Positions 14,249 through 30,810 of a DNA stretch of 64,000 nucleotides are shown here, piece after piece. Origin of the DNA: Moritella sp. Lineage in GTDB: Bacteria > Pseudomonadota > Gammaproteobacteria > Enterobacterales > Moritellaceae. The stretch is taken from contig NZ_JABSQR010000008.1 of the NCBI RefSeq assembly GCF_013215705.1, forward strand, positions 124,001 through 188,000. The letters run 5' to 3'. The first letter of the stretch is position 1. Every line of letters begins with the position of its first letter. Under the pieces are notes generated by a model. It was not told the origin of the DNA. It saw nothing but the letters and a program-made list of their open reading frames with translations, and did not search any database. Both the position numbers and the translations under genes were made by a program.

Positions 14249-15604
14249 CTAAGAATCAGAGCTTCCTGGTACATGAAATAATACAATTTTATATGGACCA
14301 TCATTATCCACTGGAGTTATAGAGGGTGTTCCACTATCAGTACAGTTTCCGCCACTATTAATGAACTCACCCACGACATAGGAAGTTGGTCCTGAACTAC
14401 CCACTTTTTGGGTCATAAAAAAACAACCAATATCAAGGAAGTCAAGATCGTTCGCGCCATTTGTTGTACCGTTACAATCTGCGATAACAACCTGTAAAAT
14501 ACGGCGGTCTGATCTGGCCACTTGCGACCCAGCACTCAGTTCTGCAATGATATTACCGCCTGATATCGGGTTAATGGCATCGCATGAAGTGTTCGCGTCG
14601 TTTAGATATTGGGCTTCATCGTTATCGTAGTCATTAAATGTATATGATTTAGCGGCAGCACCTGCTTCAAGAGCGTCACCATTTGAATCAAGTTCGATCG
14701 TCGCGCCTTCACATATATTGGTATCTCTTAGGTGCTCGGTCGAATTAACGGGTCCATACCATTCTCCCATTCTGGTATTCAGTCCTTGTGCAACTGGCCC
14801 TACTGTATTACCTGGTTCTGTTGGTACCGATTGATTGCTTATTCCGGGCGTGAAACAGACTGTGCCAAGATTTGTGTCACCAGCCATTGCCGCACGGATG
14901 TCTGCGGCCCCGGTATTGGAACCAAGACGAAGTAACTGAAAATTTCCGGGACCGATTGGAGAGTTTGAATTTGAACCAATTTTCATCAAATTTAGACTAT
15001 ATTCTTTTAAACCATACTCATTTGTCAGCGCATCTGCGTTAGCGTTCGCTAAGTCAGCACAAACGACCATAGGGACTAAGTCTTGATAACAATTACTTAT
15101 ATCAGAGCTAGGACCCGACAGTGCTGTCGCTGAAACTTGTTTATTAAAACTGAACACATCAGCGAGAAAGTTATCTAGATCTAACTGTGATAAAGATACT
15201 TTCACATACTTTGCGCTTTCATTATTATCTTGAATAAACGGATCTGGTAATTGTGAAAATTCTACGTTTAACTGCGCTGTCATTTGATCGAGACTATTAT
15301 TCACACTTGAAAAGTCGATTGCACTTGCTAACTCATGGTGATCGTTATGCGTTATGTTTAATTGGATCAAGGCGACGACTGCAGCCCTAGCTTGCTCATG
15401 AGTTGCACCTTCATCTAACTCTGTAGCAGCATGCAAAGCTGCAGCATCGACTAAATTTTGTAATTTCCCTTTGTTTAGTAATAAATGGCCGCCGTCTAGC
15501 GCTAATGAAGCCATGCCAATAAGAGCAAATAAGGCTACTGTAAACACAATGAGAACGTTACCGTTTTGTTTATTTCTTAAGGTGTTGTTTGAGTTGATAC
15601 CCAT
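14249..15604 (-). CDS. tadG: TadG-like protein with pilus-assembly N-terminal domain
   Basis: About 451 residues. The start at 15604 is chosen over the TTG at 15619 because AAAGG lies 8 bases before it. NKQNGNVLIVFTVALFALIG is the TadG/TadE-like membrane segment, followed by DGGHLLLNKGKLQNLVDAAA, a motif of the putative Flp pilus-assembly TadG-like domain. The remaining extracytoplasmic part is Asn/Asp/Gly rich with several Cys. No complete von Willebrand A domain with a MIDAS (DxSxS) is obvious, although many TadG proteins have one. Envelope-located; role in anchoring the pilus is inferred from the family. Confidence 0.82.
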   Translation of the reverse strand: MGINSNNTLRNKQNGNVLIVFTVALFALIGMASLALDGGHLLLNKGKLQNLVDAAALHAATELDEGATHEQARAAVVALIQLNITHNDHHELASAIDFSSVNNSLDQMTAQLNVEFSQLPDPFIQDNNESAKYVKVSLSQLDLDNFLADVFSFNKQVSATALSGPSSDISNCYQDLVPMVVCADLANANADALTNEYGLKEYSLNLMKIGSNSNSPIGPGNFQLLRLGSNTGAADIRAAMAGDTNLGTVCFTPGISNQSVPTEPGNTVGPVAQGLNTRMGEWYGPVNSTEHLRDTNICEGATIELDSNGDALEAGAAAKSYTFNDYDNDEAQYLNDANTSCDAINPISGGNIIAELSAGSQVARSDRRILQVVIADCNGTTNGANDLDFLDIGCFFMTQKVGSSGPTSYVVGEFINSGGNCTDSGTPSITPVDNDGPYKIVLFHVPGSSDS

Positions 15605-15619
15605 AATGTAGCCTTTCAA

Positions 15620-15862
15620 TTACTGTGAAATATCACGCGCAGATTTAGCGTCATAAGCACTATCATGATATGAAGAGATAACTTTTTGGCCATACTTACC
15701 TTCAAGAGTATTGGTTATGCCATCATTTTTTGCAGGGGCATTGGGATCAAGAATTTGTATGTCTTTAAAATATAGCGTTGATGCTGATAATTCGTAATTA
15801 GGCTCTTGCACGCAACCGAATAAGAATTGGCTACAGAGCAGTATTAAACTTATATATTTCAT
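15620..15862 (-). CDS. small predicted lipoprotein between rcpA and tadG
   Basis: About 80 residues. A short hydrophobic signal ends in LFGC, a lipobox, at residues about 14-17. The mature part is polar, without recognised domain. The second of two adjacent ATGs (15862) has AGGG at the better distance. It sits where rcpB or another outer-membrane component occurs in other Tad loci, so it may be a pilotin or secretin accessory, but no homology is visible. It begins 50 bases after rcpA and its stop lies just before tadG. Confidence 0.72.
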   Translation of the reverse strand: MKYISLILLCSQFLFGCVQEPNYELSASTLYFKDIQILDPNAPAKNDGITNTLEGKYGQKVISSYHDSAYDAKSARDISQ

Positions 15863-15912
15863 CATGATCCCTTAATTCAATTGCTTGCTATAAATGTATT
15901 ATCAATACTTAG

Positions 15913-17382
15913 CTAATTGAGAGTATGGCCATACTGTTGCTCCGTGCCACCCGAATTTGGCACAATACTTGCGGGCGTATCTGAAGTATCATTAGGTTTT
16001 TTGGTATCAGAGCCTTTCTCTTGCTGTGTCATTTTACCGAGTAAGTAAAACTCCATATCAGACACGGGCACAAAGCCATCGGTAGGTAATATCATGCCAT
16101 CTTTGTTAAAGGGTCTGACTAAGCGAGGTGTCACCATAATAACCAGTTCTGTTTGACCACTTATATACTCTTGGCTTGTGAATAACTGGCCTAAAATCGG
16201 AATGTTACCTAAACCTGGGAATTTAGTGATAGATTCACGAAGGTTATCACTTAGCAAGCCACCAATAACGATAGTTTGGCCATCTCCGAGTTCAACCGTG
16301 GTTGCGGTAGATCTTTTGATTAAAGAGGGGATGATAGTTGATGTGTTGGAGTCTGATGCTGAGATCATCACACTATTGACGCTACTGAGTTCACTGACAA
16401 GTACCTTAAGATTTAGGTTGATTTTACCAGAATCAAGTACTGTTGGTACAAAACTGACACCCACACCAAAATCTCGATATTCGATTATAACGCCATCATC
16501 AGTTGAAACCGGCACTGGATACTCACCACCAGATAAAAACTCAGCAGACTGGCCACTCAGTGCCGTTAAATTGGGTTCTGCAAGTATTTTCGTTAACCCT
16601 TTACTTTTTGCTACGTCAAAAGCAACGCTAAACAACATATCACCAGTGAGATAGCGAGCAAAAATATTAGTATCTATTGTGCCTAAAATATTAGTCGGCA
16701 CATTACCAGTCCCTGTCCCTATACCAGCAAATCCATCTGAACCGAATGCACCCAGAACGGTGTTACCATCCAAATTGCGACCTATATCTGTACTAACTTC
16801 CGCAACCGTGACTTCTAACATGACCTGTTGACCACCGCCGACAGACATCATATTAACGACAGTACTGTTACTTTTGTCCACGTTAGCTGCTGTTGCATAA
16901 CCTTGGGCAATTTCTACGGCAGTATTCATTTTCACTAATGATGAGACCTGCCCACTGACCACCAATTGACCTTGTGAGGTTTCTACGCCAATGTCTTCAT
17001 TTGGTAAGTATTTGTATAGACGTTTTCTAAGACTATTTAAGTCATGGGTTACCTCTAGATTTTGCACGTGAACTAGGTTGTCGTCTTTATCCCATACCAT
17101 CATGTTCGTGGTGCCTAATCTTTTACCGACTATATACAGCTCGCGACTGCGTAGAATTAGGATATCAGCAATATCAGAATTACCTACGGATACGCGATGG
17201 ATCGCTTTATCCATTTGTAACGTTTTAGATTTGAAAATAGGAATTCTAACACTATCATCATCTAATGCAGTTGGTCCGCCAGCGAACGCTGTACTCACTA
17301 AAATTAAATTGGAGATGAAAATTAAAACAACTAATGACCATTGCTTAGACTCATATTTATAAAAATGGGAGTTTATATTCAT
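15913..17382 (-). CDS. rcpA: Tad pilus outer-membrane secretin RcpA (CpaC)
   Basis: About 489 residues. Signal peptide, then a pilus-secretin N-terminal domain (KSKTLQMDKAIHRVSVGNSDIAD), a BON-like segment (LVVSGQVSSLVKM), and the C-terminal secretin domain with VPVSTDDGVIIEYRDFGVGV and TTVELGDGQTIVIGGLL. It forms the outer-membrane channel for Flp pili. ATG 17382 has AGGTG 6 bases before it and is preferred to the GTG at 17391. The tail after GKMTQQEKG is Ser/Pro/Asn rich. Confidence 0.93.
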   Translation of the reverse strand: MNINSHFYKYESKQWSLVVLIFISNLILVSTAFAGGPTALDDDSVRIPIFKSKTLQMDKAIHRVSVGNSDIADILILRSRELYIVGKRLGTTNMMVWDKDDNLVHVQNLEVTHDLNSLRKRLYKYLPNEDIGVETSQGQLVVSGQVSSLVKMNTAVEIAQGYATAANVDKSNSTVVNMMSVGGGQQVMLEVTVAEVSTDIGRNLDGNTVLGAFGSDGFAGIGTGTGNVPTNILGTIDTNIFARYLTGDMLFSVAFDVAKSKGLTKILAEPNLTALSGQSAEFLSGGEYPVPVSTDDGVIIEYRDFGVGVSFVPTVLDSGKINLNLKVLVSELSSVNSVMISASDSNTSTIIPSLIKRSTATTVELGDGQTIVIGGLLSDNLRESITKFPGLGNIPILGQLFTSQEYISGQTELVIMVTPRLVRPFNKDGMILPTDGFVPVSDMEFYLLGKMTQQEKGSDTKKPNDTSDTPASIVPNSGGTEQQYGHTLN

Positions 17383-17409
17383 ATGTATCACCTATTTATA
17401 GTCGAATAA

Positions 17410-18204
17410 CTAAATTTTAAGTTGGACAGATTCTTGGGTTGTTCCACGGATTATTTCGACTTTATGTTTTCTAATTTGACGCGGTTTAAACACAGGTGGC
17501 GCTATTTCAACAATATCATCGGTGGTCACTTCTTTATTGCTTGCAAAATCGACAGCGTGGCTGTCTGTTGGATTGCGTAGTGCTAGCTGTAACCGTCCTT
17601 TATTACGGGCCGTCATCAATATTTCAGCTTGTTCTAGGTTAACTTCGACGGTGATAGCTCTTACAAGTTGAGGCTTGTTTTCATTTATTGCTGCGCGTTG
17701 ATCAATGGCTAATATCTTAATATTATGTAGAATTACTTCTGTCTTTACGTAACCTCCGCTACCGGATACCGTATTTAAAATATCTATTCTGTTACCTGGT
17801 AATAAGAAACCAGCCACACCGACAACATCATCAACACGGATAGATACAGCGCGCATATTTTCTGAAATAAGGCTTGCTAGTGTACTGCCTTCACCTTTGA
17901 TGAGCAGTCTTTCTAATCGGATGATGTCATCTATATAAATAGTCTCTTTCGCTATCATGCCGTAGATTTCATTTGGTTCAGCGACAGTATTATCAGCTGA
18001 CATAGACTCGGGCAAAACTTTCAATTTAATATGTTTGGATTCAATGATCGTACCTACGGGAATAATCATAGTGGAAAAGGCTATATAAACTTGGTTTTCT
18101 GGAGCCGCCACTTTATTGGTTTCTAACCAGTTTTGTGCGATTAAAATAGCGCCAACCCCAAACATAATCGAGATTGTAACTGAAATTACGGTTTTTTTAT
18201 TCAT
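17410..18204 (-). CDS. rcpC: Flp pilus assembly protein RcpC (CpaB)
   Basis: 264 residues. N-terminal membrane helix, an SAF/beta-clip domain (FSTMIIPVGTIIESKHIK), then the RcpC core (SIRVDDVVGVAGFLLPGNRIDIL). CpaB/RcpC is a periplasmic partner of the secretin. RBS GAGGTAGG precedes the ATG. Located 18 or more bases before rcpA, same operon. Confidence 0.92.
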   Translation of the reverse strand: MNKKTVISVTISIMFGVGAILIAQNWLETNKVAAPENQVYIAFSTMIIPVGTIIESKHIKLKVLPESMSADNTVAEPNEIYGMIAKETIYIDDIIRLERLLIKGEGSTLASLISENMRAVSIRVDDVVGVAGFLLPGNRIDILNTVSGSGGYVKTEVILHNIKILAIDQRAAINENKPQLVRAITVEVNLEQAEILMTARNKGRLQLALRNPTDSHAVDFASNKEVTTDDIVEIAPPVFKPRQIRKHKVEIIRGTTQESVQLKI

Positions 18205-18221
18205 GTTACCTACCTCTAATA

Positions 18222-18356
18222 TTATTCGTTCTGACTAACAAAGTAGTGCTTCCATGTGATATCTATTAAGTTGTTTTCGACTTGGTTTTGGAGTTCATTC
18301 AATTTAACTTGATCAGTAATGATACTGAGTAGACAATGTCTCAGCGGGTGTGTCAT
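18222..18356 (-). CDS. possible 44-residue ORF overlapping the stop of the preceding small ORF
   Basis: An open frame starting MTHPLRHCLLSIITDQ uses an ATG that overlaps the TGA of the 75-residue gene upstream (TGATG), then ends 17 bases before rcpC. No homology is recognised. The coupled start makes translation possible. Equally it may be noise in a decayed gene: together with the upstream ORF it fills the spacer between tadV and rcpC. Low confidence as a real gene. Confidence 0.3.
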   Translation of the reverse strand: MTHPLRHCLLSIITDQVKLNELQNQVENNLIDITWKHYFVSQNE

Positions 18357-18583
18357 CAGAAAGCATTAGATCTGAAAAGTATGTGCTTAATAAGTAATTG
18401 TGTCAGGAGTTGAGCGGATAAGCCTGTTTCGGTAATCGTTGTCGGGCGTTTAGCAAGGTGTTCATAAGTAAAATTAGTTTTTTCTTGTTCTAAAACGATT
18501 CCAGGTAAGGGGGTATTGTCATCAGTGGATAATGTTGGTTGATTTTGTTGCTGCCCATTTACCGATTGGTCCGTCATAATCAT
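18356..18583 (-). CDS. small protein of unknown role in the Tad locus, perhaps the stub of a longer ATPase gene
   Basis: 75 residues, Gln/Thr/Pro-rich at first, then RPTTITETGLSAQLLTQLLI and KHILFRSNAF to the end. The TGLS-x-x-LL-x-x-LL-x-KH pattern recalls, from memory, the opening of long AAA-type ATPases encoded in some Tad loci, in which a winged-helix-like domain follows; here the frame stops there. It may therefore be a truncated remnant, or a genuine short protein. It sits 34 bases after tadV on the same strand. Start choice: two ATGs (codons 1 and 3); a GGAACGG lies before them. Confidence 0.5.
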   Translation of the reverse strand: MIMTDQSVNGQQQNQPTLSTDDNTPLPGIVLEQEKTNFTYEHLAKRPTTITETGLSAQLLTQLLIKHILFRSNAF

Positions 18584-18617
18584 GTCCGTTCCTATTTATA
18601 TTAAAGTTATAGGAGAA

Positions 18618-19208
18618 TTATATGAGATTAAGAGATGTGCTAATTTCATTAATAATGACTTCTATCGTCCACATCAAATCGTCAATGTCATGGTTAACAT
18701 AAGTAGCTAACATCCAACCAAGCATCAATGCGGGTGCGTAGGGCACATTAACCCTTCCTGCATCTCCTTTTTCGGGTTTAAAATATGTACGTAAATATAA
18801 GCAATCGATATAACGATAAATCATCATTTTTAAACCACGCCAACCTACCGCTTTGGTTGCAATTAATATACTTGTAAATGCGCCAAAGATAACGCCGTAA
18901 GCAATCGACCACGTTAGGACTAAGGGACCAGCCAACGTGCCAATACCTATTATTAATTTGACATCTCCAGCACCTAGGATTTTGAAATAATAAGCTGGGA
19001 TTAACAATAAGGTGGCAAGACCTGCTCCAGATAATGCTTCAAGTAGACCATCCCAACTATGAAAATAGCTGTTAACTGTTATGCCTAGTAAGAAAGTTAA
19101 TAAGCACAACAGATTAGGGATACGTTGATAACGAAGGTCAAAGTATAAAGCCACACTTAAGCTAAATAATGTGATCACTACCGATGTTAACAACGCATAT
19201 TCCGTCAT
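18618..19208 (-). CDS. tadV: Tad prepilin peptidase TadV (CpaA)
   Basis: 196 residues, a type IV prepilin peptidase of the short A24 type with several membrane helices. The two catalytic aspartates are seen in DLRYQRIPN (about residue 25) and GAGDVKL (about residue 80). It cleaves Flp pilin and the TadE/F pseudopilins. It lies 30 bases after flp. Length is normal for the stand-alone peptidase domain. Confidence 0.93.
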   Translation of the reverse strand: MTEYALLTSVVITLFSLSVALYFDLRYQRIPNLLCLLTFLLGITVNSYFHSWDGLLEALSGAGLATLLLIPAYYFKILGAGDVKLIIGIGTLAGPLVLTWSIAYGVIFGAFTSILIATKAVGWRGLKMMIYRYIDCLYLRTYFKPEKGDAGRVNVPYAPALMLGWMLATYVNHDIDDLMWTIEVIINEISTSLNLI

Positions 19209-20620: not shown

Positions 20621-22237
20621 ATGTTACGTTTAACCGATGTAAAACTTCCGTTAGATCATGATGATCAAGCTATTAATGAATATATTTTACAGAGATTGTC
20701 ACTGCAACCTGAACAATTGAGTGAATATACTGTTTTTCGTCGTGGTTATGATGCACGTAAACGAGATGTGATTATCTTAATGTATACATTAGATATTACG
20801 TTGGCTGATAGCGTAGATGAGCAAACGCTTCTGGCTAAGTTTGAAAAAGATCAGCATGTTCGAATGACGCCTGATATGGAATACAAATTTGTTGCTGAAA
20901 AAACAGAAGAACTAGAGCATCGTCCTGTTGTGATTGGCTTTGGTCCATGTGGTTTATTTACAGCGTTAATCCTTGCGCAAATGGGATTAAAACCAATTGT
21001 TCTCGAACGTGGTAAAGAAGTGCGTGAAAGAACAAAAGATACATTCGGATTTTGGCGTAAACGTGTTTTAAATCCAGAATCAAATGTTCAATTTGGTGAA
21101 GGTGGCGCGGGTACATTCTCTGACGGTAAATTGTATAGCCAAGTAAAAGATCCAAAATTTCATGCGCGTAAGATTTTAACTGAATTTGTTAAAGCGGGCG
21201 CGCCTGAAGAGATCATGTTCTTAAGTAAGCCACATATTGGCACATTTAAGCTGGTTACTATGATTGAGCGTATGCGTAAAGATATCATTGCGCTTGGCGG
21301 TGAAATTCGTTTTAGTGCCCGTGTTGATGATATTTTAATTGAAAATGGTCAAGTTACCGGTGTTGAACTTGCTGGTGGCGAAATTATTGAAACAAATCAT
21401 ATTTCTCTGGCTATTGGTCACAGTGCGCGTGATACATTTGAAATGCTACAAAAACGTGGCGTTTACCTAGAGGCTAAGCCTTTCTCAATTGGTTTCCGTA
21501 TTGAACATAAACAGTCAGCCATTGATGACGCGCGTTTTGGTAAAAATGCCGGTAACCCACTACTTGGTTCTGCGGATTATAAACTTGTTCATCATTGTAA
21601 GAATGGTCGTTCGGTTTATAGCTTCTGTATGTGTCCCGGCGGTACTGTTGTTGCGGCAGCGTCAGAAGAAGGTTGTTTGGTAACAAATGGCATGAGCCAA
21701 TACTCGCGTAATGAAATGAATGCGAACAGCGCTATTGTTGTTGGTATTACGCCAGAAGATTTCCCAGGTAACCCATTAGCGGGTATTGATTTACAACGTA
21801 AATGGGAACAGAACGCTTTCGTTATTGGTGGTAGTAACTACGATGCTCCTGGACAAACAGTAGGCGATTTCCTTACTGGTCGTGGTGAAGGTGAATTTGG
21901 TGATGTTGTGCCATCATATAAGCCAGGACTTAAGTTTACTGACTTAAGCAAAACGCTTCCTCCTTTTGCGATTGCTGCTATCCGTGAAGCGATACCGGCT
22001 TTTGAAAAGAAAATTAAAGGTTTCTCTGCCAAAGATGCAACACTAACGGGTGTTGAAACGCGTACATCATCGCCTGTAAGCATTAAACGTGGTCGTGATT
22101 TCCAAAGTATCAACACGAAAGGGTTATACCCTGCCGGTGAAGGTGCAGGTTATGCTGGTGGCATTTTATCTGCTGGTATTGATGGTATTAAAGTGGCAGA
22201 AGCAATGGCACTTTCTATGCTTGGAAAAGAAACTTAG
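20621..22237 (+). CDS. FAD-dependent oxidoreductase, COG2509 type
   Basis: 538 residues. A small N-terminal domain (1-95) precedes an FAD-binding Rossmann fold, VIGFGPCGLFTALILAQMG at about 104-122, then GEGGAGTFSDGKLYS, and a C-terminal FAD-closing segment GLYPAGEGAGYAGGILSAGI. This is a widespread, biochemically undefined family of putative dehydrogenases. Single gene, with its own terminator. The substrate cannot be inferred from the sequence. Confidence 0.85.
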   Translation: MLRLTDVKLPLDHDDQAINEYILQRLSLQPEQLSEYTVFRRGYDARKRDVIILMYTLDITLADSVDEQTLLAKFEKDQHVRMTPDMEYKFVAEKTEELEHRPVVIGFGPCGLFTALILAQMGLKPIVLERGKEVRERTKDTFGFWRKRVLNPESNVQFGEGGAGTFSDGKLYSQVKDPKFHARKILTEFVKAGAPEEIMFLSKPHIGTFKLVTMIERMRKDIIALGGEIRFSARVDDILIENGQVTGVELAGGEIIETNHISLAIGHSARDTFEMLQKRGVYLEAKPFSIGFRIEHKQSAIDDARFGKNAGNPLLGSADYKLVHHCKNGRSVYSFCMCPGGTVVAAASEEGCLVTNGMSQYSRNEMNANSAIVVGITPEDFPGNPLAGIDLQRKWEQNAFVIGGSNYDAPGQTVGDFLTGRGEGEFGDVVPSYKPGLKFTDLSKTLPPFAIAAIREAIPAFEKKIKGFSAKDATLTGVETRTSSPVSIKRGRDFQSINTKGLYPAGEGAGYAGGILSAGIDGIKVAEAMALSMLGKET

Positions 22238-22329
22238 TTCTTTTAAATCAAGTGTTGTTAGTGTTTAGCTAATGAGTTGATTAAACATCGACATGCACGC
22301 GTAAAACATTCGCGTTATGATAGAGAGAG

Positions 22330-22360
22330 GGGCGGTTAGTGTGAATTAACCGCCCTTTTT
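22330..22360 (+). terminator. Rho-independent terminator of the FAD oxidoreductase gene
   Basis: Stem GGGCGGTTA / TAACCGCCC with an 8-base loop, followed by TTTTT on the plus strand. Confidence 0.9.
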
Positions 22361-22381
22361 ATAGATTAATAATTTTATTGG

Positions 22382-25069
22382 TTACTTCGAAAAAATTGCT
22401 TTAATCTTTTTAATTGGTTTGTTGACCGCAACCCGCACCTTGCGTTTTAGTGCGTGTTTAATGACCGTAGATCTCAGGTCTTTAAACTCTACCGCGTCTG
22501 CATCGTAGGTTCTGGTTAGGGTTATAGCATCAAATTTACACCTGGTGGTACAGGCTCCACAACCAATGCACGTGTATTCATCTGCAATGACCACACCACA
22601 GCCTAGGCAACGTGCCGATTCTTTCTTTACTTGCTCTTCAGTAAATGTTTCACGAAGATCCTTGAAGGTTTCTTTCGATTTTTTGCCATCTACATGCGAA
22701 GTTTGTTGTCTTGGTGCGGTATCAAAACCAGCAAGATTAACATTAGCCTTATCAAATGCACGGTAATCACGTTTTAGGCGACCTAACACCAAACTTTGAC
22801 CACGTTGAACAAAACGATGAATAGAGATAGAACCTTCTTTACCATGTGCAATCGCGTCAATGGCAAAACGAGGACCTGTTAATGCATCACCACCGGCGAA
22901 AATATCTGGTTCACCCGTTTGGAAAGTATCAGCATCCGCTTGAATAGTCTGGTTAGGATTTAATACAACTTTGCTGTCTGCAAGAATACTACCCCAATCC
23001 ATCGCTTGACCCACTGAAAGTAATACGTGATCAGCTGCAACAATCTTAGTATCATTCTCGTCATAACTCGGATTAAATTTGCCATCTGCGTCAAATACAG
23101 AAATACATTTTCTGAATTCTACACCGACAACTCGGCCATTTTCAGCGACGATGCGTTTTGGACCCCAAGAATTGTTAACGTTAATGTCTTCATCTAACGC
23201 TTCTTCAACTTCTTCTGCGTGTGCAGGCATTTTTTCACGGCTTTCAAGACAGAACATATCTACTTGTGCAGCGCCGACTCGGGTTGCCGTTCTTGCTACA
23301 TCAATAGCAACATTACCACCACCGATAACAATTATGTTACCTTCAAATTTCGAGTGATCGCCTAGATTAACATGACGTAAGAATTCTACACCGGTGATAA
23401 CGCCTTGTGTATCTTCACCTTCTAGTCCTAGCGATCGACCCGCCTGCGCACCGATAGCCATGTAGAATGCTTTGTAATCCTGTGTCCTAAGATCATTAAG
23501 GCTGATATCTTTACCAATTTCAACGCCGGTTTTAAATTCAATGCCCAAGTCTTTCAATACATCGATTTCGGCGTTGATCACATCTTTTTCAAGACGGTAA
23601 GAAGGAATGCCCAGTGTTAACATACCGCCCAGCGCTTTTTGTTTTTCAAACACGGTAACTTTGTAACCTTGCACAGCCAAATAGTAAGCACAAGATAGAC
23701 CAGCAGGACCAGCACCGATAATGGCAATTTTCTTATCGTAGTCATGTTTAATCGTTGGAACATAACGCGTGTCAGCGTTCATATCCTGCTGTGCAATGAA
23801 TTTCTTAATATCATCAACAGCAACCGCACCATCTATATCACAACGGGTACAATCATCTTCACAGAATTTTGGGCAAATACGTCCGCATACCGCAGGGAAC
23901 GGATTTTCCAGCTTAATCAGTTGGAGTGCTTCAGCATATTTACCTTGCGATGCCAACTTGATATAACCTTGAACACCGATATGCGCAGGGCAGCCCGCTT
24001 TACAAGGTGCTGTGCCCTCTGCCATAACAACTTCTCTGTTAATACGGTAATCTTCATTCCATCTGTCTGGCGTCCACTCTGTGTTATACGGAAGCTCACG
24101 TTCAACCTTCGGAATAGGCGTGTTCTTACACAGTTTTTGTCCTAGTTTCAATGCATTAGTCGGGCATACTTCAACACATTCGCCACAAGCAACACACTTA
24201 TCTGCATCTACTTTTACAGTATAGTTAGAACGCACGAAATCGTGGTTCGTCAACATGTTGGCGTTTCTTAAAGCAAGGCAACCACAACCGCAACAGTTAC
24301 ATATCGCGTGTGTGTGCCCAGGTCCGTCTACATTTGGCATGTTATGCATTAAACCGTTATCTTCGGCTTTATGAATGATTTCAAATGCTTCTTCACGGGT
24401 GATTTCACGACCACGGCCAGTACGAATATAATATTCAGCGGCGTTGCCTAATTGAATACACATGTCCTCTTTAAGGTGACCACAGCCTTCTCCCATTGCC
24501 TCTCTGGCAGTACGGCAAGAACAGTCTGATACCGAGAATCGATCGTTATCATTTAAGTATTTAGATATTTCATCATTCGATACACGTTTAGATTCACCTG
24601 AAATCGCAGATTCGATTGGTATAACCCGCATCGGTCCCGTACCTATCGGAAAGTTACCTATCGCAAGGGGGCCTCTTTTTCTGCCATAATCACTAAATGC
24701 TTTACCCATTTGCGGATATTTAATCGAATTTTCTTTGTGATTGACCAGCATTTCCATGTGGCCGGGGACCCAGAGCTCGAGCCAGAATTTATCGACGCCG
24801 TCTTGCTCGCCCACAATAGTGGCTCCTACCATGGCGAGTTCCCATAACAGTTCTTTGGTTTTTTCTGGTGATTTCCCGCACTCAGAAGCAACTTCTTCTA
24901 CAGTCTTCCCTTTACGAAATTTAAGACACAACGCCGCTTCTGCCATTTCATCGGTGACTACAGGTTCTAATACTTTATATTCAGGGTGTTCTGGTTTGAC
25001 TTCATCTTTAGCCCCTCGTTTAGTCCTACTGATCAAATTCGCCAAGTCTATTACTTTTTCTTTTACCAT
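22382..25069 (-). CDS. multi-cluster Fe-S flavoprotein with GltD/NfnB-like NADPH module, paralog 1
   Basis: About 895 residues. Domains in order: an N-terminal region (1-270) with Cys groups CSCR...GCGH...C (184-205) and CNCCGCGC (258-265); a ferredoxin motif CVACGECVEVCP (293-304); a GltD-type N-terminal helical domain with cluster ligands CKAGCP (357-362) and CGRICPKFCEDDCTRC (396-411); an FAD Rossmann motif GAGPAGLSC (453-461); an NADPH Rossmann motif GGGNVAID (584-591); and a C-terminal ferredoxin RCLGCG...CIGCGACTTRC (821-845). A cytosolic enzyme moving electrons between NAD(P)H and ferredoxin-like centres is likely; substrate unknown. A GTG at 25072 is an alternative start, but GGAG sits 8 bases before ATG 25069. 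It lies downstream of hypA across a 450-base gap. Confidence 0.8.
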   Translation of the reverse strand: MVKEKVIDLANLISRTKRGAKDEVKPEHPEYKVLEPVVTDEMAEAALCLKFRKGKTVEEVASECGKSPEKTKELLWELAMVGATIVGEQDGVDKFWLELWVPGHMEMLVNHKENSIKYPQMGKAFSDYGRKRGPLAIGNFPIGTGPMRVIPIESAISGESKRVSNDEISKYLNDNDRFSVSDCSCRTAREAMGEGCGHLKEDMCIQLGNAAEYYIRTGRGREITREEAFEIIHKAEDNGLMHNMPNVDGPGHTHAICNCCGCGCLALRNANMLTNHDFVRSNYTVKVDADKCVACGECVEVCPTNALKLGQKLCKNTPIPKVERELPYNTEWTPDRWNEDYRINREVVMAEGTAPCKAGCPAHIGVQGYIKLASQGKYAEALQLIKLENPFPAVCGRICPKFCEDDCTRCDIDGAVAVDDIKKFIAQQDMNADTRYVPTIKHDYDKKIAIIGAGPAGLSCAYYLAVQGYKVTVFEKQKALGGMLTLGIPSYRLEKDVINAEIDVLKDLGIEFKTGVEIGKDISLNDLRTQDYKAFYMAIGAQAGRSLGLEGEDTQGVITGVEFLRHVNLGDHSKFEGNIIVIGGGNVAIDVARTATRVGAAQVDMFCLESREKMPAHAEEVEEALDEDINVNNSWGPKRIVAENGRVVGVEFRKCISVFDADGKFNPSYDENDTKIVAADHVLLSVGQAMDWGSILADSKVVLNPNQTIQADADTFQTGEPDIFAGGDALTGPRFAIDAIAHGKEGSISIHRFVQRGQSLVLGRLKRDYRAFDKANVNLAGFDTAPRQQTSHVDGKKSKETFKDLRETFTEEQVKKESARCLGCGVVIADEYTCIGCGACTTRCKFDAITLTRTYDADAVEFKDLRSTVIKHALKRKVRVAVNKPIKKIKAIFSK

Positions 25070-25072
25070 CAC

Positions 25073-25525
25073 ATTAACTCCAAATGTTTAAATTATTATT
25101 ATTTTAAATTAGTCACTTAACTGCATGTCCAGTCATCGCCTTCTGACACAGTTAAGGGGGAACGTTAAGTTTTTTATGCGCCGCTAATACGCTGATAAGA
25201 GTGCCTGCTCGACCTCTTGTTATAATAGGAACTAGGTCTTATCCCACGCATACAATCACGCACTAAATATGTGGTTATTATACTCATTTTTGAGTGTTTA
25301 TGATTGGATGCAAATCACGATTAGCTAAAAAACAACGTGTTATGTCTGTGAAAAGTTAATTACTACATTATTGTTAACGAACGGTATTTAAGTTTGAAGC
25401 AGAAGTGGCTTGTGGGAATTAAGATTTAAATTGCCGAGATCGCCTTTGCCAACACGTGACAACCAGCGACCTAGCTTTTAGGTAATATGAAAAATCAGTC
25501 ATAAAAAAACAGCTGTGTGCAACTA
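25073..25525. other. 453-base intergenic region between hypA and paralog 1
   Basis: No gene seen. On the minus strand a TATAAT hexamer (complement of 25277-25282) stands next to a short palindrome ACTCA-TTTT-TGAGT at 25282-25295, a possible promoter/operator for paralog 1. No FNR box and no clear terminator for hypA were found. The length suggests that paralog 1 has its own promoter. Confidence 0.4.
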
Positions 25526-25867
25526 TTAGCAAGCAATGACTTCTTTTATCGAGAACTCTTTACCGCTTAACATACCCCATTCCAGACTTTCACATCTCGG
25601 ACATTCAGATTTGTGTCTGATAATATTAAAAACATACTTACACTCTTTACAGATTGCTTCTGCGGGAATGATTTCAATGTCCAATTTTGTCTCCTCAAAC
25701 TCCGTACCGTCGACGGCTGCAGGGAAACATTCGTGAATGTATTTTGGGATCATCGATGATAGTTCACCAATTTGCAGCACAATTGTATCGACTTTTGTTA
25801 ATCCATTTTTATCTACGAAATTTTTAACGGTTTTTATGACTTCAAAGACAACGCCTAATTCGTGCAT
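25526..25867 (-). CDS. hypA: hydrogenase/urease nickel incorporation chaperone HypA
   Basis: 113 residues, normal HypA length. It begins MHELGVVFEV; the N-terminal Met-His-Glu is the nickel site of the family. The zinc domain has CKEC and CPRC. HypA delivers nickel, with HypB, to NiFe hydrogenases (and in some species urease). RBS AAGGAGG is strong. It lies 117 bases after paralog 2 of the Fe-S flavoprotein. No nickel enzyme is encoded in the window, so its client must be elsewhere or be unusual. Confidence 0.93.
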   Translation of the reverse strand: MHELGVVFEVIKTVKNFVDKNGLTKVDTIVLQIGELSSMIPKYIHECFPAAVDGTEFEETKLDIEIIPAEAICKECKYVFNIIRHKSECPRCESLEWGMLSGKEFSIKEVIAC

Positions 25868-25983
25868 AAGAACCTCCTTATTATTTTGATTGAAAGGGCG
25901 AATAACTATATTCCTCGCCCTTTTGATACCATTGACCTAAACCGCTGGTTTTATAACATTGATTAATTATCCAGCTTTAGGGC

Positions 25984-28671
25984 TTAGCTATTAATAAACG
26001 CTTTTATTTTTTTGATCGGTTTGTTTACTGCCACTCGCACTTTACGTTTTAACGCATGCTTGATAATGATCTTCTTCACTTCTTTCAGGTCTGAACCTTC
26101 AGCATTATGTGTTTTAACAAGCGTAATCGCACCAAATCTACATTTCGTTGTACATGAACCGCAACCTATACACATAAATTCGTCGGCAACAGCTACACCA
26201 CAGCCGAGACAACGCTCAGTTTCTAACCGTACTTGCTCCTCGGTGAATGTTTCACGTAGATCACGGAATGTTTGTTTAGACTGTTTACCGTCAACATGAG
26301 CAATATTCTGTCTTGGTGCATTGTCAAATCCATTAAGATTAATGTTCTTTTTATCAAATGCACGGTAATCACGTTTAATACGACCAAGAACCAAACTTTG
26401 ACCATTTTGAACATAACGGTGGATAGAGATTGAACCTTCTTTACCTGCTGCAATCGCATCAATGGCAAATCGAGGGCCAGTTACTACGTCACCGCCAGCA
26501 AATACGTCTGGCTCATCCGTTTGATAAGTAGCAGCGTCTGCAGGGATTGTTTGGTTAGGATTTAACTCGATGTTACTGTTTTCAAGTATGTTACCCCAAT
26601 CTATTGCTTGACCAACTGAAAGCAATACATGGTTAGCATCAACAATCTTTGTATTGTTTTCGTCATAGCTCGGGTTAAATCTGCCGTTTGCATCTATTAC
26701 AGAAATACATTTTCTGAATTCTACCCCGACAACTCGGCCATTTTCCGTCACGATACGTTTTGGACCCCAAGAATTGTTGATGTTAATGTCTTCATCTAAG
26801 GCTTCACTTACTTCATCTACGTGAGCAGGCATACTTTCTCGGCTTTCAAGACAGAACATATCCACTTGTGCAGCACCAACTCGGGTAGCGGTTCTTGCTA
26901 CGTCAATGGCAACATTACCACCACCTATAACAATCACTTTTCCTTCAAGTTCGCTATTTTCACCTAGGTTAACTTTACGTAAGAATTCAACACCCGTCAC
27001 AACACCTTGCGCATCTTCACCTTCAAGACCTAGCGAACGACCAGCCTGAGCACCAATTGCCAAGTAGAATGCTTGGTAATCTTGTTTTCTCAGTTCAGCA
27101 AGAGTGATATCTTTACCTATTTCAACGCCAGTTTTAAACTCAACTCCCAATTCTTTCAAAACATCGATTTCTGCGTTTATCACATCTTTTTCAAGTCGAT
27201 AAGACGGAATACCAAGGGTTAACATACCACCCAGCGCAGTTTGTTTTTCAAATACCGTTACTTTGTAGCCTTCAACTGCTAAGTAGTAAGCACAAGAAAG
27301 ACCGGCTGGACCACCACCGATAACAGCAATTTTCTTATCATAGTCATATTTAATTTTCGGAATATAGCGTGTATCCGCGTCCATTTCCTTCTGCGCAATG
27401 AATTTCTTGATGTCATCAACAGCAACTGCACCATCAAGATCACAACGGGTACAATCGTCTTCACAGAATTTTGGACAGATGCGTCCGCACACTGCTGGGA
27501 ACGGGTTTTCCATCTTGATCAGTTTAAGAGCTTCTTCATAATTGCCTTGCGAAGCAAGTTTGATATAGCCTTGAACGCCGATATGAGCCGGGCAACCTGC
27601 TTTACAAGGTGCAGTACCACCTTCCGTAACAACTTGTTTGTTGGTACGGTAATCAGGGTTATATTTATCTTCGCCCCATTCAGTATTATGAGGCAGTTCA
27701 CGTTCTTTTTCAGCTACTGGCACTTTACTACATAGTTTCTGACCTAGTTTCAACGCATTAGTCGGACATGTTTCAACACATTCGCCACAAGCAACACATT
27801 TATCCAGATCAATTTTAACCGTATAGTTAGAACGAACCATATCCGGGTTTTGCCACTGTTCCGCAAGTCTCATTGCGAAACAACCACAACCACAACAGTT
27901 ACAGATTGCGTGAGTTTTACCAGAACCATCTAAGTTTGGAATGCTGTGCATCAAGCCGTTATCTTCCGCTTTTTTAATCACTTCCATCGCTTCATCACGG
28001 GTGATCTCGCGACCACGACCGGTACGGATATAGTATTCCGCCGCATGGCCCATCTGAATACAGATATCTTCTTTTAAATGACCACAACCTTCATCCATGG
28101 CTTCGCGAGATGTACGGCAAGCACAATCAGAAAGAGAGAAAACTTCATTATCATTAAGGTATTTAGACACTTCTTCATAAGAGGCCGTTCTTGTATCTCC
28201 ATCAATCGAAGTTTCGATCGGAATTACACGCATAGGGCCTTTACCAACAGGGATATTACCTGCGCACAGTGGGCCTTTTTTCTTACCGAAGGCATCAAAA
28301 GCGGCACCTAGTTCAGGATACTTCTGAATAAGCTCTTTATTGTTAACAACCATTTCCATGTGGCCAGGAACCCAGATATCAACCCAGTATTTGTCCACAC
28401 CCTCAACATTGTTCACAAAGGCTGCTCCGCCTACTGCTGATTCCCATAGCAGTTTAGCTACTTCCTCCTCCGGCCTGCCGCAAACAGAAGCAACTTCCGC
28501 CGCACTCATTTTTTCCCGTAGTTTCAAACAAAGGGTAACCTCTGCCACGTCTTCAGACATCCAAGGGCTATAAATCTTATATTCAGGATCGTCAAACGTA
28601 ATACCAGCTTTTGAACCACGTTTAACCCGACTGATCTTGTTCGCAAGATCTAAAACTTTGTCTTTTCCCAT
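25984..28671 (-). CDS. multi-cluster Fe-S flavoprotein with GltD/NfnB-like NADPH module, paralog 2
   Basis: About 895 residues, collinear with paralog 1 over its whole length and nearly identical in the core (for example NPFPAVCGRICPKFCEDDCT). The same Cys groups, FAD motif GGGPAGLSC, NADPH motif GGGNVAID and C-terminal ferredoxin are kept. Divergence is strongest in residues about 20-100 and near the C-terminus. The start context GGAGGCAATGTGATG matches that of paralog 1; ATG 28671 is chosen over GTG 28674. It follows hypB by about 40 bases that consist largely of a hexanucleotide repeat, so hypB and this gene are likely cotranscribed. An electron-transfer role linked to nickel enzyme metabolism is an inference from neighbours only. 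Confidence 0.82.
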   Translation of the reverse strand: MGKDKVLDLANKISRVKRGSKAGITFDDPEYKIYSPWMSEDVAEVTLCLKLREKMSAAEVASVCGRPEEEVAKLLWESAVGGAAFVNNVEGVDKYWVDIWVPGHMEMVVNNKELIQKYPELGAAFDAFGKKKGPLCAGNIPVGKGPMRVIPIETSIDGDTRTASYEEVSKYLNDNEVFSLSDCACRTSREAMDEGCGHLKEDICIQMGHAAEYYIRTGRGREITRDEAMEVIKKAEDNGLMHSIPNLDGSGKTHAICNCCGCGCFAMRLAEQWQNPDMVRSNYTVKIDLDKCVACGECVETCPTNALKLGQKLCSKVPVAEKERELPHNTEWGEDKYNPDYRTNKQVVTEGGTAPCKAGCPAHIGVQGYIKLASQGNYEEALKLIKMENPFPAVCGRICPKFCEDDCTRCDLDGAVAVDDIKKFIAQKEMDADTRYIPKIKYDYDKKIAVIGGGPAGLSCAYYLAVEGYKVTVFEKQTALGGMLTLGIPSYRLEKDVINAEIDVLKELGVEFKTGVEIGKDITLAELRKQDYQAFYLAIGAQAGRSLGLEGEDAQGVVTGVEFLRKVNLGENSELEGKVIVIGGGNVAIDVARTATRVGAAQVDMFCLESRESMPAHVDEVSEALDEDININNSWGPKRIVTENGRVVGVEFRKCISVIDANGRFNPSYDENNTKIVDANHVLLSVGQAIDWGNILENSNIELNPNQTIPADAATYQTDEPDVFAGGDVVTGPRFAIDAIAAGKEGSISIHRYVQNGQSLVLGRIKRDYRAFDKKNINLNGFDNAPRQNIAHVDGKQSKQTFRDLRETFTEEQVRLETERCLGCGVAVADEFMCIGCGSCTTKCRFGAITLVKTHNAEGSDLKEVKKIIIKHALKRKVRVAVNKPIKKIKAFINS

Positions 28672-28691
28672 CACATTGCCTCCAAAATTTT

Positions 28692-28721
28692 ATTTTTATT
28701 TTTATTTTTATTTTTATTTTT
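28692..28721. repeat. five-unit ATTTTT microsatellite at the hypB/paralog 2 junction
   Basis: Five tandem ATTTTT units (plus strand). On the coding strand they supply the last Lys codons and TAA stop of hypB and then the spacer up to the GGAGG of paralog 2. A change by whole units would keep the hypB frame but alter the distance between stop and next ribosome-binding site. Confidence 0.85.
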
Positions 28722-29382
28722 TCCAATCTTTAACTTCTGTACGAAGCCAGTTAGTCCAATCTTCAATACCTTCGCCAGTTTTAGCTGAAATTGGAAATAC
28801 TTTAATATTTGGATTTAATTTTTTGACACGCTCTATAGCGGCTTCTAAATCAAAATCAAAGAAGTCCATTGCATCCATTTTATTAATTAGGAGTACATCA
28901 CAGATAGAGAACATTAATGGGTATTTAAGCGGTTTGTCGTCACCTTCAGGAACACTCAGAATCATTACATTTTTGGCTGCGCCAGTATCAAATTCGGCCG
29001 GACAAACTAAATTACCAACATTTTCTAAAATCGTTAAATCAAGCCCTTCCGCATCAAGCCCTTGTAGTCCTTGCATCGTCATTTCTGCATCGAGATGGCA
29101 CATTCCACCCGTGTGTAACTGGATCACTTTGACACCGGTTTTGGCAATAGTGTGGGCGTCAACATCGGAATCAATATCAGCTTCCATAACACCAATATTC
29201 ATTTCATTTTTAAGTTTGCTAATTGTAGCAACTAGGGTTGTCGTCTTACCTGAACCCGGAGATGACATTAAGTTTATTAGTAAATTACCTTTTTGTTTTA
29301 ACTCAAGTCGTAACGAATCTGCGTGTTTGTTATTATTGGCAAATATGCCTTCTTTTATTTCTATAATCTTAAAGTTATCCAT
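28714..29382 (-). CDS. hypB: hydrogenase nickel incorporation GTPase HypB
   Basis: 222 residues, SIMIBI GTPase. P-loop SSPGSGKTTT at 40-49; EADIDSDVDA; metal site GGMCHLDAEM with Cys95-His96; ENVGNLVCPAEFDTG; and the base motif NKMD. The N-terminal His-rich nickel-storage stretch and the CxxC motif of some HypB proteins are absent, so it is a minimal form. It works with HypA to insert nickel. RBS AGGTGAG. It is the first gene of the hypB - paralog 2 - hypA series. Confidence 0.94.
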   Translation of the reverse strand: MDNFKIIEIKEGIFANNNKHADSLRLELKQKGNLLINLMSSPGSGKTTTLVATISKLKNEMNIGVMEADIDSDVDAHTIAKTGVKVIQLHTGGMCHLDAEMTMQGLQGLDAEGLDLTILENVGNLVCPAEFDTGAAKNVMILSVPEGDDKPLKYPLMFSICDVLLINKMDAMDFFDFDLEAAIERVKKLNPNIKVFPISAKTGEGIEDWTNWLRTEVKDWKK

Positions 29383-29524
29383 AAACTCACCTGTATGTAG
29401 CGTGGGGTAGGCTGATGCGTTCCCCCAACAATAATTAAATTAGTTGATTCCATTCTACGCTTACCACTCGATACCTACTAGTGGGTACTTGTGAAAATTT
29501 GAGTATTAACTCTAATATTAGATG

Positions 29525-29542
29525 TTGATCATATTTAATCAA
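29525..29542. promoter_or_regulatory. 18-bp palindrome-like site upstream of hypB
   Basis: TTGATCATATTTAATCAA, with TTGAT/ATCAA halves 8 bases apart, about 143 bases before the hypB ATG. A similar 18-bp site precedes uspE (53941-53958). The half sites resemble FNR half sites, but the spacing is 8 rather than 4, so it is not called an FNR box. Confidence 0.35.
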
Positions 29543-29620
29543 TAATGAGGTGCGGGGTCGAAAGCTTAATGATTGAAATTTAGATATTAAATTTGACAGC
29601 GCTGGAATGGAAAAGTAAAA

Positions 29621-29645
29621 AGCCGTGCACTTTAAGTGAACGGCT
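29621..29645 (-). terminator. Rho-independent terminator of purC
   Basis: On the minus strand AGCCGT-CACTT pairs with AAGTG-ACGGCT, one mismatch, followed by TTTTAC. Located about 60 bases after the purC stop. Confidence 0.8.
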
Positions 29646-29706
29646 CTAGAATTAGTTAGATTATTATTTTTTCGCTTGATACTGATGTATTTTGTGCGGA
29701 GTCGTA

Positions 29707-30810
29707 TTAGTCGATAAGATTATAATCGTTACGTAAGATCTCGATGATTTCAGCTTTCGGATTATCAGATAAAAAAATCTTTTCGCCAGTGATCTTTTCT
29801 GCAATATTTAAGTAAGTTTCAGAAACAGACATTAATACAGATGTTGGTAATACATTATGTTTAGCGAGCGCTAAACGTTCATCCATTCTGTTTTTATTGA
29901 GTAAAATATCTGGTTCAGGGAAGTAGTTAAGTAATAATTGACGGAAACCTTCTTTTGAGTTTTCAATCACTTTACCTTCGCGGAAAGCGGCTGCATCCCA
30001 AATACGTGATGAGTCAGGCGTACCCACTTCATCCATATAGATAAGCTTGTCTTGACCTTTACTGTCTGTGACATAGCCAAATTCGAATTTAGTATCGACA
30101 AATACCTGATCAACATCTGCTAATGCATCACTGATTACGTTAAAGCCTTCTTTTAGTAACTTTTCGTAATAAGCAATATCATCAAGCGATTTGAAGTTAA
30201 ATGCTTCGAAGTTATCTGAAATGTTTTTACGAGTGATGTTAACATCATCGACAGCTGGAACACCTGGAATGCCTTCTAAAATACCTTTAGTCGACGGTGT
30301 AATGAGTAATTCTGGTAGCTTTTGGTCTTTAGTTAAACCTTCTGGTAGTTCGATACCACAGAAGTTACGCTCACCTTTACTATAAGCACGCCACATAGAA
30401 CCCGTGATGTATTGACGGCAAATTGCTTCAATCATTACTGGTCTGGCTTTTTGAACGATCCAAATGAATGGGTGAGGGATATCAAGAATATGGCTATCAG
30501 CTAAACCGTTCTCACGGAAAGACTTAAACCAATGGTTTGAAATTGCGTTTAGCGCAGCACCTTTCCCAGGTACACCGCGCATGCCATCTTCACCATGCCA
30601 AATACATTCAAACGCAGAAATACGGTCACTAATAACCATAATCGCAAGTGGTGCATCCGCCGCTACATCGTAACCTTTTTCTTCGATTAGACGACGACTG
30701 TCAGCTTCAGTTAACCAGTAAACAGAACGTACTTTACCGCTGTGAACCGGTTTATCTGTACGGATCGGTAAATCATTGTTTACAGCTAATACTTTATCAG
30801 CAAGACTCAT
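29707..30810 (-). CDS. purC: phosphoribosylaminoimidazole-succinocarboxamide synthase
   Basis: 367 residues, the long SAICAR synthase seen in Vibrio and relatives rather than the 237-residue E. coli type. [11 protein letters not shown] (nucleotide loop), [16 protein letters not shown] and DTKFEFGY are family motifs; EVGTPDSSR is the conserved substrate segment. It joins CAIR and aspartate with ATP in purine synthesis. RBS AAGGAT. A large inverted repeat lies just upstream. Confidence 0.95.

Follow-up and report, generated by a model that had tools for sequence, protein, structure and literature searches.

A hypAB and flavoprotein locus in Moritella

We analysed a 64,000-nucleotide stretch of the genome of a Moritella sp. 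(contig NZ_JABSQR010000008.1, positions 124,001 to 188,000 of the forward strand; hereafter the window), in which genes for the nickel chaperones HypA and HypB alternate with genes for two iron–sulfur (Fe-S) flavoproteins. The open reading frames (ORFs) of the window place all four genes on the minus strand, in the transcription order hypB (28714-29382; 222 amino acids, aa), flavoprotein A (25984-28674; 896 aa), hypA (25526-25867; 113 aa) and flavoprotein B (22382-25072; 896 aa), with successive spacers of 39, 116 and 453 nucleotides. This order had been proposed by a sequence-only reading of the same DNA, and ORF coordinates, Pfam and NCBIfam bear it out: HypB reaches 250.5 bits with TIGR00073 (cut-off 121.2; 1.1e-74) and HypA 104.5 against 28.9 for PF01155 (4.2e-30), the latter protein staying under the NCBIfam hypA cut-off (77.4 versus 88.1 bits). 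Both have the residues of nickel metallochaperones, HypA with its His2 and two CxxC pairs and HypB, a GTPase, with a C-H...C site and the P-loop SPGSGKTT. The flavoproteins, paralogs with 74% identity, each carry Fer4, PF14691 (dihydropyrimidine-dehydrogenase domain II) and PF07992, all over cut-off, and fall under the named NCBIfam equivalog cut-offs (465.7-466.3 versus 516 bits for NF009410; 277-286 versus 471.75 bits for gltA).

Search for hydrogenases and other nickel enzymes

The classical role of HypA and HypB is in [NiFe]-hydrogenase maturation, and the sequence-only reading, having noted that no hydrogenase lies nearby, had offered as one of its two alternatives that the locus serves a hydrogenase elsewhere, with the flavoproteins as its NAD(P)H/ferredoxin partner. 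The lack of a hydrogenase extends to the whole source genome (G000; 4.86 Mb, listed as 100% complete and 0.41% contaminated), which contains neither the [NiFe]-hydrogenase large subunit PF00374, the small subunit lying outside the search, nor HypD (PF01924), with HypC, HypE and HypF likewise outside it; eight further family-bearing genomes, some of them metagenome-assembled genomes (MAGs), also lack HypD. The locus is real and is not a hydrogenase locus, and service to a distant hydrogenase, contradicted by these absences, is scarcely credible. The presence of hypA and hypB in a genome does not imply a hydrogenase; Helicobacter urease is a known non-hydrogenase client of HypAB. No urease alpha was found in the Moritella genome either, nor any CO dehydrogenase (CODH) over cut-off: the sole weak CODH match (23.6 bits versus 478) reads as hybrid-cluster-like, and E. 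coli and other controls respond to the model too. The only HypA in the genome is the one at this locus.

Flavoprotein domains and a conserved Cys/His site

Residues ~352-757 of the flavoproteins (PF14691 + PF07992) match 9bov, 9n5u (NfnA), 4ylf and 5jca by phmmer, and this is the module they share with NfnB, GltD, DsrL and dihydropyrimidine dehydrogenase, whose matches do not reach the N-terminal ~350 residues and whose genes are not known for linkage with hypAB. When residues 1-273 of paralog A are scanned by themselves, no Pfam family passes its cut-off. An alignment of 59 family members (identity to A, 44-100%) reveals that this N-terminal domain holds an invariant set (59/59) of C184, C186, C205, C258, C260, C265 and H243; equally invariant is the C-terminal ferredoxin motif C822, C825, C835, C838, C841 and C845, and conservation is lower at C197 (53 members), H199 (39), and C261 and C263 (38). 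Three loci were left out of this alignment, L013 and L018 for broken frames and L092 as the same place as L007. The putative active-site segment spans 27880-28125 in paralog A and 24278-24523 in paralog B, both on the minus strand, with identical residues in an ungapped stretch of the pairwise alignment.

Structure prediction over the whole length, with 19 close sequences, gave a predicted local distance difference test (pLDDT) score of 56.5 and was not used; the N-terminal part alone (311 residues) reached 70.4. The N-terminal model had no Foldseek match at E <= 0.001, and a second structure comparison aligned mainly its residues 3-140 with winged-helix proteins (best Z 6.6 for 3r0a; root-mean-square deviation 7.0, 105 aligned), barely covering the metal-binding half; the likeness may be merely a common arrangement.

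One stand-alone protein at L008 (135-1280), the single example seen, consists of the N-domain and a ferredoxin; it keeps the Cys set and has H243 replaced by Leu, H199 by Gln and H255 by Phe.

Relationship to IsrA

The sequence-only reading took the unit to be unknown to the literature; in fact the main text of Kronen et al. 2023 (PMC10134865) describes both IsrA, from Acetobacterium wieringae ISORED-2 / strain Y, and a 'clade 9' with HypA/HypB co-occurrence. According to that text, isoprene strongly induces the isrA-hypA-hypB-ferredoxin-hypA operon, the genome that carries it has neither [NiFe]-hydrogenase nor hypCDEF, and 988 IsrA homologs have HypA, HypB and DUF5692 nearby at frequencies of 0.73, 0.56 and 0.40. 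The same source proposes IsrA as the nickel target, with a 'Cys6' cluster V site that includes the CxC pairs Cys180-182 and Cys254-256; it singles out 26 residues (756-782) as peculiar to IsrA and the homologs nearest to it, and reports that other Acetobacterium strains, with homologs sharing 47-49% identity with IsrA, fail to reduce isoprene. Like the Moritella proteins, IsrA as described there has ~900 aa, an ~270-residue N-domain without known family, Fer4, PF14691, PF07992 and a ferredoxin-type C-terminus. By register its CxC pairs 180/182 and 254/256 correspond to 184/186 and 258/260 here, and both loci set hypA and hypB next to each other or the flavoprotein, in genomes that lack [NiFe]-hydrogenase and HypD. 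They differ in that the isr operon has one reductase, two hypA genes and a 4Fe-4S ferredoxin, whereas Moritella has two reductases, one hypA and no intervening ferredoxin gene. The Moritella pair is a further member of a kind that is already published but biochemically uncharacterised.

Linkage to hypA and hypB

A scan of named genomes yielded 18 loci, in M. dasanensis, Shewanella, Vibrio, Hahella, Caloramator and Thermobrachium and in MAGs of Bacteroidales, Salinivirgaceae, Spirochaetales and Bacillota, not all of them independent (L013 and L019 are both Vibrio maritimus). HypB lies beside the flavoprotein in 17 and HypA in 16, the exceptions being L004, which stops at a contig edge, and L015, which is without both. 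Because the order hypB-flavoprotein-hypA recurs in Shewanella, Vibrio, Hahella, Caloramator, Thermobrachium, Bacteroidales and Spirochaetales loci, the arrangement in Moritella is not one of chance. In an even draw of Caloramator's class, the N-terminal profile matches 37/391 genomes, with 40 full-length copies in 33 genomes; among the 39 neighbourhoods compared (the 40th copy is L011), 34 have hypA within 3 kb, 33 have hypB and 32 have both, counts made by tblastn and reproduced identically by six-frame profiles. Gene orders vary (hypB-isr-hypA, isr-hypA-hypB, hypB-hypA-isr, isr-DUF5692-hypA) and the linkage persists. The sequence-only reading had named a flavoprotein family mostly lacking hypAB as a result that would refute it; this was not what we found, for 17 of the 18 named loci and 35 of the 39 clostridial ones have hypA and/or hypB no more than 3 kb away.

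A third gene, DUF5692, lies within 3 kb in 16/39 clostridial and 3/18 named loci and occurs in four places in the Moritella genome, which lends itself to a different reading: the flavoprotein would be an Fe-S/FAD-only, Nfn/GltD-like electron donor, in keeping with its standard GltD/NfnB-like C-terminal half, and HypAB would load an unlinked or membrane partner, such as the DUF5692 protein, as the real metal enzyme. However, hypA and hypB are linked to the flavoprotein oftener than DUF5692 is, and eight aligned DUF5692 proteins display, by eye, no invariant Cys or His column, whereas the N-domain of the flavoprotein has its invariant Cys6 and His set. We consider this reading unlikely.

Cassette-type HypA and HypB

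HypA and HypB from these cassettes form groups of their own. In unrooted trees, 48 cassette HypB proteins separate from 8 hydrogenase-region proteins (support 97/93), and 46 cassette HypA proteins from 8 hydrogenase proteins (98/90); both trees have long branches on the hydrogenase side and hold simple ORF calls only (without the HypBs of L010, L011 and L018, and with L092 excluded), and the HypA of L093, on a contig apart from HypD, is labelled by exclusion. Although the [NiFe]-hydrogenase proteins belong to the same families and have the same metal residues, His90 of HypB is specific to the cassette type (48/48 versus 0/8), to which the Moritella HypA and HypB belong. Cassette HypA keeps His2, Glu3 and the two CxxC pairs in 46/46; of the 48 cassette HypB proteins, all keep C95 and C127 and 47 keep H96. 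Among 19 genomes with the family, each of the 9 without HypD has exactly one HypA over cut-off, located at an IsrA-type cassette; of the 10 with HypD, 9 have two HypAs and one, a MAG (G377), has one only.

These results bear on the possibility that HypAB serve another nickel enzyme, for example Ni-dependent glyoxalase I, lactate racemase or nickel superoxide dismutase (Ni-SOD), and adjoin the flavoprotein for other reasons. All three enzymes lay outside the genome search, and HypAB have non-hydrogenase clients such as the Helicobacter urease mentioned above. Yet the linkage holds across phyla, in shuffled orders and in genomes with a separate HypA, the cassette-type proteins form distinct groups, and urease alpha is absent with CODH below cut-off; we regard such a client as quite improbable. 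The second alternative of the sequence-only reading, that HypAB serve a metal enzyme other than a hydrogenase, is the better supported of its two.

Neighbouring permease-type genes and possible lipid genes

Genes of permease type adjoin several cassettes. A HupE/UreJ gene stands directly 5' of hypB in four Vibrio loci, with the motif HPxxGxDH in 4/4 (PF04955 tested for one); L008, L012 and L016 have as a neighbour a membrane gene of DsbD_2/UreH-like type, whose motif, H-x3-G-x-DH, is a related one (Pfam tested for two); and in three Shewanella loci a HupE_UreJ_2-type gene lies 3' of hypA on the opposite strand (Pfam tested for one). Five of these permease-like proteins were tested against NCBIfam models, with no match. 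We take the HupE/UreJ and UreH-like families and motifs to be markers of nickel permeases. Three clostridial loci (L099, L104, L106) have ABC transporter genes of FecB and FecCD type close to the cassette.

Other neighbours may concern lipids. A gene resembling a polyunsaturated fatty acid (PUFA) isomerase adjoins 5/58 cassettes (L087, L101, L107, L110 and L111; L088-L098 were left out of the neighbour clustering), and for the three proteins tested the best Protein Data Bank (PDB) match is 2b9w (2.8e-62, 7.3e-42 and 6.8e-24). This entry, a 'putative aminooxidase' in the PDB, we take to be PAI, the PUFA isomerase of Propionibacterium acnes, with Arg88 and Phe193 presumably catalytic; no paper confirming these residues was found in the open-access literature. 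Among the aligned isomerase-like proteins, the Arg88 position holds Arg in 5/5 and the Phe193 position Phe in 4/5 (Met in L111). The link between isomerase and cassette represents at least two occurrences, not five, and PAI is a possible partner of the relatives' cassettes rather than a family member. At all five loci a transposase-like helix-turn-helix gene, perhaps a domesticated regulator, stands beside the isomerase-like gene and the cassette.

At V. tapetis locus L005 (4590-8438), two DUF5692 genes, a porin-like gene (weak, below cut-off) and a chalcone-isomerase-like gene form a block that continues on one strand into HupE-hypB-isr-hypA. The Moritella genome holds six DUF5692-type genes in four places, of which five pass Pfam, and two of the six (L155, 2048-9379, on contig C14) immediately adjoin a cluster of ole (long-chain olefin) genes, in which OleC and OleD score over their model cut-offs and OleA and OleB are assigned by position and general family. 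A similar-looking block to that of V. tapetis is present elsewhere in the Moritella genome (L156, 6943-11039), with two DUF5692-type genes, an outer-membrane-like gene (by eye) and a chalcone-isomerase-like gene. The only paper mentioning DUF5692 that we found in the open-access literature is PMC10134865, the main text of which contains no 'linole', Shewanella, Vibrio or HupE and a single 'oleate', for an oleate hydratase near two Acetobacterium homologs; it was also the only paper found there on isoprene reductase and nickel or on HypB and biohydrogenation. New relative to that main text and the literature found are the separate grouping of cassette-type HypA and HypB, the genomes with two HypAs, the neighbours of permease type, His243, the link to an isomerase and the pair of paralogs in Moritella.

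Proposed function

We favour, with moderate confidence, a reading in which HypAB load nickel into the IsrA-type flavoprotein itself, which would reduce C=C bonds, perhaps of lipids. Within it, nickel delivery to the flavoprotein is likely, and C=C reduction plausible. HypB would bind Ni(II) and GTP and hand nickel to HypA for insertion into the flavoprotein, the most probable place being the Cys6 (+His243) site of the N-terminal domain; the FAD of the GltD-like half would be reduced by NAD(P)H, and electrons would travel via ferredoxin-type [4Fe-4S] clusters to the Cys6 site, where an unactivated, probably conjugated, C=C bond would be hydrogenated. The reaction might serve as an anaerobic electron sink or in the remodelling of unsaturated lipids or hydrocarbons, and the second flavoprotein would be a diverged paralog, perhaps with another substrate. 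As to substrate, the neighbouring genes make lipids the best lead; some of these neighbours are linoleate-isomerase-like and suggest conjugated linoleic acid as a specific compound for assays, a choice of relevance to the biohydrogenation of fatty acids. The gene set is compact (reductase, hypA and hypB, often DUF5692) and could be moved to a laboratory host for nickel and diene-reduction assays.

A bolder version, which we put forward tentatively and think more doubtful than not, places IsrA-type proteins in a nickel enzyme class not recognised before, that of a Ni-Fe-S 'C=C hydrogenase' with a Cys6/His243 active site loaded by its own HypAB, and gives them as one main natural role the reduction step in the biohydrogenation of unsaturated lipids: a PAI-type isomerase would make a conjugated diene, which the Isr protein would then reduce. 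Marine Moritella, Shewanella and Vibrio would have acquired the system from anaerobes, and Moritella would have ended up with two copies. Few classes of nickel enzyme are known, and the reduction of unactivated C=C bonds is a hard reaction; few of the enzymes by which anaerobes carry it out have, to our knowledge, been identified.

Several points weigh against nickel-dependent C=C reduction by the flavoprotein. The literature covered contains no metal analysis or purified activity of any family member, and IsrA itself is described as a 'putative' isoprene reductase in the main text of PMC10134865. The likeness to IsrA is one of architecture and register, since the sequence VUZ27132.1 was not found; the structure models are too poor for judging Cys6 geometry; and the search for nickel clients other than hydrogenase covered urease alpha and CODH only. 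No hypAB lies within 3 kb in 4/39 clostridial loci (L105, L131, L132, L135) or in L015, although each of these genomes holds another, linked copy (L087 in that of L015). HupE and UreH-like neighbours occur at a minority of cassettes, namely at 4 and 3 of the 18 named loci, respectively, and at 0/39 clostridial loci. The isomerase link comes from two tree groups, with four of the five loci in one, and no PAI-like isomerase gene was found at the 18 named loci.

Evolution of the cassette and other features of the window

In our tree, midpoint-rooted for drawing only, the copies from Gammaproteobacteria group together amid sequences that are mostly clostridial, a pattern that fits transfer from anaerobes. 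Paralogs A and B fall into two well-supported pairs whose branching from other copies the tree does not settle; A is 94% identical to the M. dasanensis copy at L002 over residues 4-894, and B forms a fully supported pair with the other M. dasanensis copy. Five of 11 genomes of the genus have the cassette, four with both paralogs and one (G785) with A only. It occupies the same genomic place as here in G779, G785 and G786; the M. dasanensis cassette has other genes around it. Among 369 genomes drawn evenly from the class to which the window belongs, its own genome is the only one with full-length copies. That search used an alignment (A1) that includes the ferredoxin motif, mostly scoring five candidates per genome, and later searches used one without the motif (A3). 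We did not take the A1 listing of 64/369 genomes as the family: besides the window's two copies, no row spans the whole domain, the strongest (G153; 4.2e-19, positions 163-311 in a 396-aa frame) resembles a stand-alone domain protein, and the remaining rows are weaker than 1e-6 and chiefly cover the ferredoxin end.

The family also appears on records of mobile DNA. On a mobilizable plasmid of Subdoligranulum variabile (OY725877.1, 188179-201000; L157), hypB, isr, hypA and DUF5692 stand in a row. Five unannotated faecal 'Bacteriophage sp.' records (MT835493.1, our L158, and H3-H6) encode the N-terminal domain at 32-43% identity; L158 is flagged UNVERIFIED, carries hypA and two hypB-like frames alongside, and is perhaps bacterial DNA. 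The viral_contigs set held no relative of the family.

Upstream of hypB on the minus strand, a conserved non-coding block (29501-29547), a candidate promoter or operator, is kept in 5/5 aligned Moritella upstream regions. One of the five is that of M. dasanensis, a genome in which no called gene outside the cassette has a match in the window. A simple-signal scan of 22200-29750 gave 13 promoter-like sites against 18.6 in shuffles and 10 terminator-like sites against 5.9 (s.d. 2.8), both minus-strand terminator-like sites falling within flavoprotein genes; the gap between hypA and paralog B has neither type of site on the minus strand. The 453 nucleotides of that gap, with the absence of paralog B from G785, leave room for paralog B as a separate unit. 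Farther along the window, at 14249-19208, lies what by eye is a Tad/Flp pilus-like cluster, with secretin-, CpaB- and prepilin-peptidase-like genes.

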